In this document: one piece after another, positions 6,877 through 9,085 of the stretch | Layout of the letters: each line of letters starts with the position of its first letter | Position numbering within the stretch: the stretch's first letter is position 1 | Position numbers and translations under genes: made by a program | The notes under the pieces: generated by a model | Database searches by the model: none | The model's input: only the letters and a program-made list of their open reading frames with translations | What the model was told of the DNA's origin: nothing | NCBI RefSeq assembly: GCF_001693255.1 | Contig: NZ_CP016474.1 | Location: 1 to 64,000 of the forward strand | Length of the DNA: 64,000 nucleotides | Direction: 5' to 3' | DNA from: Picosynechococcus sp. PCC 7003 | Lineage (GTDB): Bacteria; Cyanobacteriota; Cyanobacteriia; Cyanobacteriales; MRBY01

Positions 6877-7461
6877 ATGGTCATCGCCGAAGATAAATTC
6901 CCCCAACTTACCCCTGACGAATATTTGCGTTGGGAGGAACAGCAATCTGAAAAATATGAATATATCGATGGTCAAATTTATGCCATGGGGGGAGGCAACA
7001 AAAACCATAGTCTAATTGCCGTGAGGCTTGCGAGTTTATTTTTCAATCATCTGAATGGTAGCGGTTGTGAAACCGGAAATTCTGATCTCAAAATCAAAAT
7101 TCCCAACAGCCATAACTATACCTATCCAGATATCAACATCACCTGTGATGAACGAGATCAGTCCACCACCCAATTTATTACATATCCTTGTCTGGTTGTC
7201 GAAGTATTATCAAAAAGTACAGAGGCTTATGATCGGGGTGGCAAATTTAGACTTTATCGCCAAAATCCAGTCTTAAAAGATTATTTACTGGTGAGTTCTA
7301 CCGCCATCGAGATGGATTTATATCATAAAAATAAATCAGGAGAATGGCTGATTATCAACTACCAATCTGGAGACTTTATTTTCCTAGAAAGCATTGGTCT
7401 CACCTTTATTATTGAGCAAGCCTACCAAGGACTAAATATCAACAGCTTTGAACTTTTGTAA
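6877..7461 (+). CDS. Uma2-family (DUF820) putative endonuclease
   Basis: The 194-residue protein follows the Uma2/DUF820 pattern, a PD-(D/E)XK nuclease-like fold greatly expanded in cyanobacteria. It starts LTPDEYLRWEEQQSEKYEYIDG, then has SDLKIKI, the acidic YPDINITCD near residue 87, and LVVEVLSKST near residue 110, which carries the Glu-x-Lys part of the active site. Cellular function is unknown for the family. The gene has no HIP1 site and is more AT-rich than its upstream neighbours, a property shared with the darT-darG genes that follow. Confidence 0.85.
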   Translation: MVIAEDKFPQLTPDEYLRWEEQQSEKYEYIDGQIYAMGGGNKNHSLIAVRLASLFFNHLNGSGCETGNSDLKIKIPNSHNYTYPDINITCDERDQSTTQFITYPCLVVEVLSKSTEAYDRGGKFRLYRQNPVLKDYLLVSSTAIEMDLYHKNKSGEWLIINYQSGDFIFLESIGLTFIIEQAYQGLNINSFELL

Positions 7462-7572
7462 AAAAAACAATCGTTTAGTGTTGTTTGTTGTTATTTGGTT
7501 TATGATTAACGAGAGATCTACAAACGTCATTCCGTAACTCACTGAAATCAAATACTTTGTGCAAAAAAATCA

Positions 7573-8373
7573 ATGGATCCAATTACGATATTTGGCTTAA
7601 TAGTAGGGGGCAGTATTGCACGTGGTATTGCGCGCAAAAGTATTTCTATTTTCCAAAGAAAAAACTCAAGTGATCAAAAGCAAAAAACGATACAAAAAAA
7701 CAACAATACGTATCAGTACACTCCTCCTCAAACTGCTACATTCACTAATATAGACTGCCAAAACTTTACAAATTATGGGGTGAATTATTTTTACCACATG
7801 ACCCACCACACAAATATTACATCAATTTTTAACTATGGTCTTCTAAGTCACAAGAAAGCATCTCATGATTTTATTAATAAAAAGGATATTTCAAATCAAA
7901 ATGTCCAAGAGATAAGGAATTCAAAGAAAATTGTTTGTGGAGATAATACTTATGACATAAGACTCCATGATTGTGTTCCTTTTTATTTCAATCCCAGAAA
8001 TGCGATGCTTTATTCGCGTAAAGAAATGCAGAGAGATATTATATTTTTAGGGGTAAACACAAGTGTTTTTGCAAAAACAACCTCTTTTTTTACTGATGGC
8101 AATGCCGCATCTGCCGACACATTGTTTTACTATCAAACAAAAGACTTGGATAAACTACCGTGGGATGTATTAAAGAGTTCGCGTTGGAATAATAAGATTG
8201 ATGGAAGAAGAAAAATGTGTTCAGAAGTCTTAATCAAAGATCAAGTTGAAGTTGATTATATCTCCACTATAATTTGTAACAATGAAATTATAAGGCAAAA
8301 AATCATTGGCAAAATTCCTTTTGCATTTCGCCACCATGTTAAAGTTGTAGTCGATCACAGTTTTTATTTTTAA
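7573..8373 (+). CDS. darT: DarT-type DNA ADP-ribosyltransferase toxin with N-terminal extension
   Basis: DarT toxins use NAD+ to ADP-ribosylate bases of single-stranded DNA and stall replication. Residues about 72-266 match the DarT (DUF4433) pattern: FYHMTHHTNI near 73, GLLS near 89, YFNPRNAMLY near 138, and CSEVLI near 216, whose Glu218 fits the catalytic glutamate of the family. The first 70 residues are an addition to the usual roughly 210-residue enzyme: a hydrophobic stretch (residues about 5-20), then a Gln/Asn/Lys-rich linker. The gene is AT-rich, has no HIP1 site, and lies 13 bases before the macro-domain gene, the standard toxin-antitoxin order. The family call is by motif; activity is inferred. 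Confidence 0.85.
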   Translation: MDPITIFGLIVGGSIARGIARKSISIFQRKNSSDQKQKTIQKNNNTYQYTPPQTATFTNIDCQNFTNYGVNYFYHMTHHTNITSIFNYGLLSHKKASHDFINKKDISNQNVQEIRNSKKIVCGDNTYDIRLHDCVPFYFNPRNAMLYSRKEMQRDIIFLGVNTSVFAKTTSFFTDGNAASADTLFYYQTKDLDKLPWDVLKSSRWNNKIDGRRKMCSEVLIKDQVEVDYISTIICNNEIIRQKIIGKIPFAFRHHVKVVVDHSFYF

Positions 8374-8386
8374 GTGAAATTTTCAA

Positions 8387-9085
8387 ATGATCCACTATTC
8401 ACAAAACACGGTGTTTGATATAAAAGCACAAACTATCGTTAATACGATCAACTGTGTGGGTGTTATGGGGGGAGGTCTGGCTCTTGAATTTAAACTCAGA
8501 TTCCCTGAAATGCACCAAGATTACTTACTTAAATGTCAACGACAACAATTTGTCACTGGTGAACCACAAATTTATAAAGAGTCTAAACCGTGGATCTTGA
8601 ATTTTCCTACTAAAAGACATTGGAAATTTCCTTCAAAATTATCTTGGATTAAAGAAGGCTTACAATATTTTCAAAACGAATACAAAGACATGGGCATAAA
8701 ATCGATCGCATTTCCTAGGTTAGGATGTGATCGAGGCGGTCTGTCTTGGGATATAGTCCATGAAGTGATGCTTGATTATTTGAGTCTTGTTGATATTGAC
8801 GTTTTTATTTGTCTAGATAAAGAACCAGCATCTTCTGGTGTTGAAGCTCAAATGATAGAAAGCGTAAAAAATACTAAGTTTCTTAGAGATGTTGTCAGTC
8901 TTAATGAGAAATCAATCGAGAACATTCGCGGAAATATAGAGTTCAAACGATTTAGAGATATTGCAAAAATCAGAGGAATAGGCAAAAAAACTTATGAAAA
9001 AATTTTTATACATGCTTATTCCTACGCGATGAAAGAACAGCAAAACAATGTTCCAGAGATGGAACAACTCTCACTATTCCAATAG
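8387..9085 (+). CDS. darG: DarG-type macro-domain antitoxin ending in a clamp-binding-like motif
   Basis: DarG removes the ADP-ribose that DarT places on DNA. Residues 1-155 form the macro domain: QTIVNTINCVGVMGGGLALEFK near residue 15 binds ADP-ribose, and FPTK (Lys76) is where I expect the catalytic lysine. The loop reads GVMGGG where many DarG proteins have GVMGKG. The C-terminal part is short (about 75 residues against 150 or more in classical DarG) and contains IRGIGKKTYEKI, a helix-hairpin-helix-like DNA-binding pattern near residue 197. It ends in QLSLF-Q (bases 9065-9079), matching the sliding-clamp-binding pentapeptide. It follows darT by 13 bases and shares its AT-rich composition. 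Confidence 0.85.
   Translation: MIHYSQNTVFDIKAQTIVNTINCVGVMGGGLALEFKLRFPEMHQDYLLKCQRQQFVTGEPQIYKESKPWILNFPTKRHWKFPSKLSWIKEGLQYFQNEYKDMGIKSIAFPRLGCDRGGLSWDIVHEVMLDYLSLVDIDVFICLDKEPASSGVEAQMIESVKNTKFLRDVVSLNEKSIENIRGNIEFKRFRDIAKIRGIGKKTYEKIFIHAYSYAMKEQQNNVPEMEQLSLFQ

Follow-up and report, generated by a model that had tools for sequence, protein, structure and literature searches.

A DarTG-type toxin-antitoxin locus of Picosynechococcus sp. PCC 7003 whose helix-hairpin-helix antitoxin ends in a putative sliding-clamp-binding motif

DarTG is a DNA-modifying toxin-antitoxin system with anti-phage activity, and the trigger that upsets its balance on infection is described as unknown (PMC11481870). 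The toxin, DarT, marks thymidine in single-stranded DNA and stalls replication, with gaps handled by RecF (PMC7003065). Canonical DarG counters it in two ways, by removing the mark and by occluding DarT with a C-terminal domain (PMC11481870). SocAB of Caulobacter is a type VI toxin-antitoxin pair tied to the sliding clamp by a clamp-binding motif, and in that pair it is the toxin, SocB, that binds and blocks the clamp (PMC9690074). The bacterial clamp-binding consensus is QL(S/D)LF, or more generally QxxLF (PMC9690074, PMC12309361). Binding of QxxLF can be weak, at ~78 uM for a B. subtilis DnaE peptide, and the E. coli peptide QLSLPL is a tight binder (PMC12309361). Bacterial IS1634 transposases carry a clamp motif at the C-terminus and archaeal ones a PIP-compatible motif, and binding of their peptides has been shown, also across the bacterial and archaeal domains (PMC4549789). 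Here we describe a DarT gene and its neighbouring antitoxin gene in a window of Picosynechococcus sp. PCC 7003, the window being the whole stretch of DNA analysed (64,000 nucleotides).

The antitoxin gene starts 13 bases past the DarT stop, on the same strand. The features of the pair are as follows.

7573..8373, + strand: DarT toxin gene, 266 aa (Pfam, PADLOC)
8387..9085, + strand: antitoxin gene with macrodomain, helix-hairpin-helix (HhH) domain and clamp-motif tail, 232 aa
8387..8821, + strand: DarG-type macrodomain, residues 1-145 (Pfam Macro 1.1e-14; Foldseek 5m3e)
8828..9046, + strand: HhH domain, residues 148-220 (family profile, model)
8975-8992, + strand: HhH hairpin GIGKKT
9047..9082, + strand: flexible C-terminal tail, residues 221-232 (pLDDT 60-66, no secondary structure)
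9065..9079, + strand: QLSLF, putative sliding-clamp-binding motif, residues 227-231 (family enrichment)

The toxin was recognised as a DarT ADP-ribosyltransferase by both Pfam (2.5e-41, residues 74-266) and PADLOC (4.4e-44), and it scored under the NCBIfam DarT equivalog cut-off (135.3 vs 150 bits). Its glutamate 218, in MCSEVLI, aligned opposite an alanine in the solved chains 7omu and 7omv, which are presumably Glu-to-Ala mutants, and we take this residue as the probable catalytic glutamate. An extension of ~70 aa precedes the DarT domain (window 7573-7790) and opens with a short hydrophobic stretch (ITIFGLIVGGSIA). The DNA around the pair has a GC content of 33-40%, compared to ~46-54% in the flanks, and 5 further genomes from this genus were searched without a match; for these two reasons the pair looks acquired. 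The low-GC segment spans 6877-9085 and contains, in this order, genes for a Uma2-family nuclease, DarT and the antitoxin, with flanking genes at ~50% GC.

The first-pass annotation had called the second protein a DarG homologue, and this name fits one half of it. The macrodomain superposed on the Thermus DarG macrodomain 5m3e with a TM-score of 0.90 on the target (Foldseek), and the top rows for the whole antitoxin, among the matches listed, were macrodomains. Lysine 76 of the NFPTK motif, which by analogy with Thermus DarG we take to be the catalytic lysine, was invariant in 59/59 aligned members of the family described below. The PADLOC DarG profile matched at 2.7e-53, yet only over profile positions 1-147 of 329, and the NCBIfam DarG profile matched over positions 1-165 of 338 only, under its cut-off. 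The DarT-occluding C-terminal domain of canonical DarG was thus undetected with these profiles, and a profile of 58 C-terminal halves found HhH proteins instead: ComEA at 6.2e-6 and 2e-5 and, more weakly, a ski2-type helicase (7e-4) and TdT (0.008). On the single sequence, Pfam HHH_3 reached 17.7 bits, below its cut-off of 27. The model of the HhH domain and tail had a mean pLDDT of 84.9, and its VIA-align comparison to the HhH folds of DisA, ComEA, TEFM and the RAD51 N-lobe gave a middling Z of 5-7; Foldseek with the HhH domain alone gave no match at E 0.001 or better, a result compatible with a known fold. The assignment of the HhH domain draws on the hairpin sequence, the family profile and the fold, the fold comparison alone being middling. 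By sequence, an HhH domain stands where canonical DarG holds its DarT-occluding domain. It is likely to bind DNA, although it might instead bind DarT. In four other loci (L005, L006, L008 and L038; LEIQKLAYFLQ...GPY), the canonical DarG C-terminal half resembles by eye the DUF4065/Panacea antitoxin domain.

The locus thus shares with canonical DarTG (Thermus, M. tuberculosis, EPEC) the DarT beside a macrodomain antitoxin, the macrodomain fold and the NFPTK lysine. It differs in that an HhH domain and a clamp-motif tail replace the undetected C-terminal DarG domain, and in that neither window protein reaches its NCBIfam equivalog cut-off. Judged by sequence, the pair is a DarTG-type toxin-antitoxin with a non-canonical antitoxin, and both of its enzyme activities are predicted ones.

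The antitoxin ends in ...KEQQNNVPEMEQLSLFQ followed by TAG, its last residues being EMEQLSLFQ. An exact clamp motif at the extreme C-terminus had been claimed at the outset, and its coordinates proved exact: QLSLF lies at 9065-9079 and is followed by Q232 alone and then the stop. The stretch before it had been called likely disordered, in agreement with AlphaFold2, whose mean pLDDT was 96-99 in blocks over residues 1-140 and 82-94 over residues 141-220, dropping to 66 over residues 221-230 and to 60 over the final two. The protein therefore presents a QL[SD]LF peptide within its last six residues, in an exposed, flexible terminal segment (pLDDT 60-66). In this it resembles clamp-bound repair and regulatory proteins such as the Y-family polymerases (which have HhH and a C-terminal motif), Hda and MutS, in which an HhH and/or enzymatic domain is joined to a terminal QxxLF-type peptide; the difference is that the cargo here is a macrodomain of the ADP-ribose hydrolase type that belongs to a toxin-antitoxin pair. 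In SocAB the clamp motif belongs to the toxin (PMC9690074). Here the toxin is a DarT that ends in VVVDHSFYF, and it is the antitoxin that carries the motif.

To place the tail in its family, relatives were gathered from genome searches, a contig scan (best 80 of 371), viral contigs (44 loci) and one plasmid. The contig scan was ranked against the window protein including its tail and may favour like tails. Membership was defined by a profile of the linker and HhH domain built without tails. This gave 95 ORFs (with the best 80 of 371 from the contig scan), reduced to 69 by clustering at 80%, of which 65 are bacterial (two from viral contigs) and 4 archaeal. Relatives with a macrodomain and an HhH domain, so defined, are spread over many bacterial phyla and also turn up in a few archaea. 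Among the 65 non-redundant bacterial members (contig scan limited to its best 80 of 371), the last 14 residues contained the exact QL[SD]LF (6 members), Q..LF (27), Q..[LIM]F (29) or a relaxed motif (41), leaving 24 with none, some of which have near-miss ends. The corresponding means over 500 shuffles of the last 20 residues were 0.008, 0.5, 0.84 and 4.6, and the maxima were 1, 3, 4 and 11. In 252 neighbouring ORFs of at least 100 aa from the same loci the counts, in the same order, were 0, 2, 3 and 6; of the three with Q..[LIM]F, two were by eye a RuvB and a TnpB-like transposase, and one was the DarT partner in L106. In 79 macro proteins without HhH, a set that was unclustered and included fragments, they were 0, 0, 1 and 3. 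Fisher tests gave P values of 8e-20 against the neighbouring ORFs and 2e-11 against the macro proteins without HhH, which are indicative only, the rows being related. With the window protein removed, Q..LF was found in the last 8 residues of 26/64 members and in 0/13,724 internal 14-mers of the same proteins.

In 44 members the tblastn match stopped short of the tail, which thus played no role in their retrieval; 15/44 had Q..[LIM]F, compared to 14/21 of those in which the match extended into the tail. The enrichment stands, but since the query used for ranking contained its own tail, the overall figure of 29/65 may be somewhat inflated. Taxonomically, Q..[LIM]F is found in members from Bacillota, Bacteroidota, Cyanobacteriota, Pseudomonadota, Thermodesulfobacteriota, Mycoplasmatota and Aminicenantes, and also on a Klebsiella plasmid and a viral contig. 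An expectation-maximisation search of 64 tails, run without any motif as input, recovered QLSLF at width 5 in 91% of tails, with a log-likelihood of 256 vs 108-123 in eight shuffled sets, and EQLSLF at width 6. As in clamp motifs, its most constrained positions were the Q at position 1 (3.47 bits) and the L at position 4 (2.33 bits); Ser/Thr was favoured at position 3. The stretch between HhH and motif was unconserved, with a median of 17 and up to 182 residues after the HhH match, and the motif stayed terminal. On these sequence comparisons the terminal motif is not a chance occurrence at the level of the family. That the tail is a chance or neutral end of an ordinary DarG, as several close relatives without the motif might suggest, has a negligible probability and was rejected at family level, where the shuffle, neighbour, internal and non-HhH controls all oppose it.

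IMG/VR searched with the single antitoxin protein for close relatives gave no pattern match. Among phage homologues (316 records, then 58 records) none covered 80% of the query, and that of Klebsiella phage Eowyn (L235) was a macrodomain only. The Klebsiella plasmid pair had no megablast match in E. coli genomes.

In cyanobacteria the picture was uneven. The absence of the motif from close cyanobacterial homologues, which the first-pass annotation had named as evidence against its own reading, was found in part: of 18 non-redundant members, counting the window protein, 5 had a strict Q..LF in the last 14 residues, 9 had a relaxed motif, and 5 (L004, L022, L029, L030 and L126) had no recognisable motif. 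The close relatives L022/L047, 50% identical to the window protein, lack the relaxed motif, as do L003 and L071 (47% and 43% identical), which the HhH profile did not reach. Frameshift as a cause was examined in L022, L003 and L071, and their other frames had no clamp-like end. Six cyanobacterial members have 121-182 residues after the HhH match (L002, L023, L048, L050, L051 and L056) and end, in that order, in QLSLFSL, QLELNLTY, QLECFAV, QLEYEFAV, QLEFKLAK and QQLELIK; only QLSLFSL is a strict motif, the others being variants or near misses. The signal was stronger outside the cyanobacteria, where Q..[LIM]F occurred in 24/47 members. An extra C-terminal region is present in these six antitoxins and in L003, with matches below cut-off to a phage integrase in L003 (weak, E 0.024) and to a TrmB-type winged helix in L048 (E 0.00096).

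A quick maximum-likelihood tree of 70 rows, built without tails, divided with good support into groups of 34 and 36 rows, in which Q..[LIM]F was found in 14 and 17 rows respectively, the archaeal L175 and L204 being counted. Because the motif is present in both deep groups, it is, as far as these sequences tell, either an old motif that was lost repeatedly or one that arose on many occasions. It is missing, for example, from L022 and from a cyanobacterial group made up of L004, L029, L030 and L126.

Two archaeal members have ends that resemble the PIP box, Qxx[I/L]xxFF (PMC9690074). L057 (Syntrophoarchaeum), on a contig with Orc1/Cdc6- and thermosome-like genes by eye, ends in SQARISDF, and L074 (Methanomassiliicoccaceae) has QSGLSDF followed by eight residues. 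QARISDF and QSGLSDF both fit the core Qxx[I/L]xxF, and the two proteins lie on separate branches; L074 falls in the Bacillota group of the tree, and its archaeal assignment rests on the genome label. PIP-like ends were found in 2/5 intact archaeal vs 2/65 bacterial members (P 0.02, from small and related samples), and searches of 58, 59 and 147 genomes at class and order level returned no additional archaeal places. A change of motif with clamp type between bacteria and archaea, as expected of a clamp motif, is suggestive only. An unqualified archaeal swap was rejected, since L065 has neither a clamp nor a PIP-like motif and L175 and L204, from genomes of archaeal phyla, have QTPLF and QLPLF near their ends; the contig of L175 carries archaeal-looking genes by eye. 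The QxPLF ends of L175 and L204 are no clean contradiction, because archaeal PolB1, which contains QLTLF, is a PCNA2 binder (PMC3504372). The bacterial and archaeal ends recall the IS1634 transposases, an unrelated family with which only the mode of hitching to the clamp is in common (PMC4549789). Three further archaeal sequences are noted here: a decayed, frameshifted darTG (L177, the same place as L229 from 4485 onward) with a full PIP-like end, QTKLNSFF, and two macro proteins without HhH (L206 and L181) with the PIP-like ends QLNLYSFA and KPNLSDFGIS.

We then compared the host clamp with that of E. coli. The genome to which the window belongs gave one DnaN match (L226:694-1878). At positions that we take to be the peptide-cleft residues of E. 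coli DnaN, the host protein is identical to that of E. coli K-12 at L155, T172, G174, H175, R176, L177, P242, M362 and P363, and E. coli V247, S346, V360, V361, M364 and R365 are replaced by L, P, L, I, V and Q. The cognate clamp thus has an intact cleft at its core residues, and some of the other residues differ. Collectively, the terminal recurrence across phyla, the de novo recovery of QLSLF and the conserved DnaN cleft give strong comparative support to the earlier proposal that the tail is a clamp-binding motif.

The antitoxin is therefore probably, as judged by comparative evidence, a DarTG variant held at the sliding clamp through QLSLF. Points against this reading are the 24/65 bacterial members without even a relaxed motif, the differing residues in the DnaN cleft, the incomplete archaeal swap and the weak binding seen with some QxxLF peptides. 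Its macrodomain would strip the ADP-ribose placed by DarT from thymidine of single-stranded DNA, its HhH domain would contact DNA, and its flexible tail would dock QLSLF in the beta-clamp (DnaN) cleft. In this way the antitoxin would be kept at replication forks and post-replicative gaps, the source of the single-stranded substrate of DarT, and the mark would be erased locally, on nascent and gapped DNA. Direct occlusion of DarT would be absent from the HhH-type antitoxin. Such an eraser with an address label is a reasonable mechanism because the occluding domain was undetected.

The alternative that survives best is that the tail does bind the clamp, but for timing or sensing and not for repair: the antitoxin would be active or stable only when docked, and loss or takeover of the clamp, as at stalled forks or during phage takeover, would free DarT. 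We consider this unlikely, though the comparative evidence behind it is the same as for simple tethering. Hda, a clamp-dependent regulator with a QLSLPL motif, offers a precedent.

The gene neighbourhoods bear on another alternative, in which the tail binds DarT. A same-strand match to the DarT profile was found in 60/69 loci, upstream in 55. Four of the 9 loci without a match have <1 kb of upstream sequence, and the other five have ~3 kb with no DarT found (L060, L074, L082, L108 and L131). Length and N-terminal region vary greatly among the partner DarTs. Long N-terminal regions occur at L126:33-2990, L091:41-2953, L120:269-2986, L073:1042-2940 and L072:1364-3001; they reach up to ~685 residues, an upper bound since the first start codon was taken. 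In 10 partner DarTs scanned, no Pfam match exceeded the cut-off in these regions, with a sub-threshold Sacsin match in L126. Two observations concern other ends in these data. In a Clostridia genome, an ORF that looks RuvB-like by eye (L080:98-454) ends in TQLNIFND, a possible clamp motif. Two macro proteins with another C-terminal half, L116 (Hyphomonadaceae) and L232:1579-2412 (Agrobacterium plasmid), have the ends QLSLSWH and QMTLQWH, respectively, which may be clamp motifs of the hexapeptide type; in L232 the macro gene is upstream of darT.

If the tail were a DarT-binding element, QxxLF would take over from the canonical occluding domain, docking on DarT and blocking it, and its likeness to a clamp motif would be convergence. 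The DarT neighbour in most loci fits this, as does the occlusion of DarT by the C-terminal part of canonical DarG (PMC11481870). We nevertheless find it quite improbable: the motif recovered de novo is the clamp consensus and no other peptide, and it is constant while the lengths and N-terminal regions of the partner DarTs are diverse. Moreover, three of the five members with no DarT found keep a clamp-like end (QKSLF, QAELKF and the PIP-like QSGLSDF), although a diverged DarT could have been missed, and PIP-like motifs occur in two archaeal members. The composition of the motif likewise speaks against a protease degron. Many antitoxins are labile, and a hydrophobic C-terminal end could make this one so: ClpXP often recognises hydrophobic tags at the C-terminus, and the tail is flexible (pLDDT 60-66). 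A degron is very unlikely here, however, as it needs neither the Q at position 1 (3.47 bits) nor the favoured Ser/Thr at position 3, and in 16/29 Q..[LIM]F members one to three residues follow the motif.

Tethering to the clamp remains the preferred reading. By titles and passages, no report of a clamp-recruited DarG was recognised in the open-access literature, which is weak evidence of absence, and no open-access paper was found that brings DarTG and helix-hairpin-helix together. A further proposal, speculative and unlikely, is that tethering discriminates self from non-self: DNA handled by the host clamp would be continually freed of ADP-ribose, and DNA made by a phage replisome with its own clamp or polymerase would not. 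If this were true, basal DarT activity could poison the replication of the invader only, and the PIP-like ends in archaea would adapt the same device to PCNA. An antitoxin with a replisome address tag offers a concrete and cheap test of replication-coupled de-ADP-ribosylation. If it is clamp-bound, the sliding clamp would here recruit the antitoxin of a pair, in mirror image to SocB.
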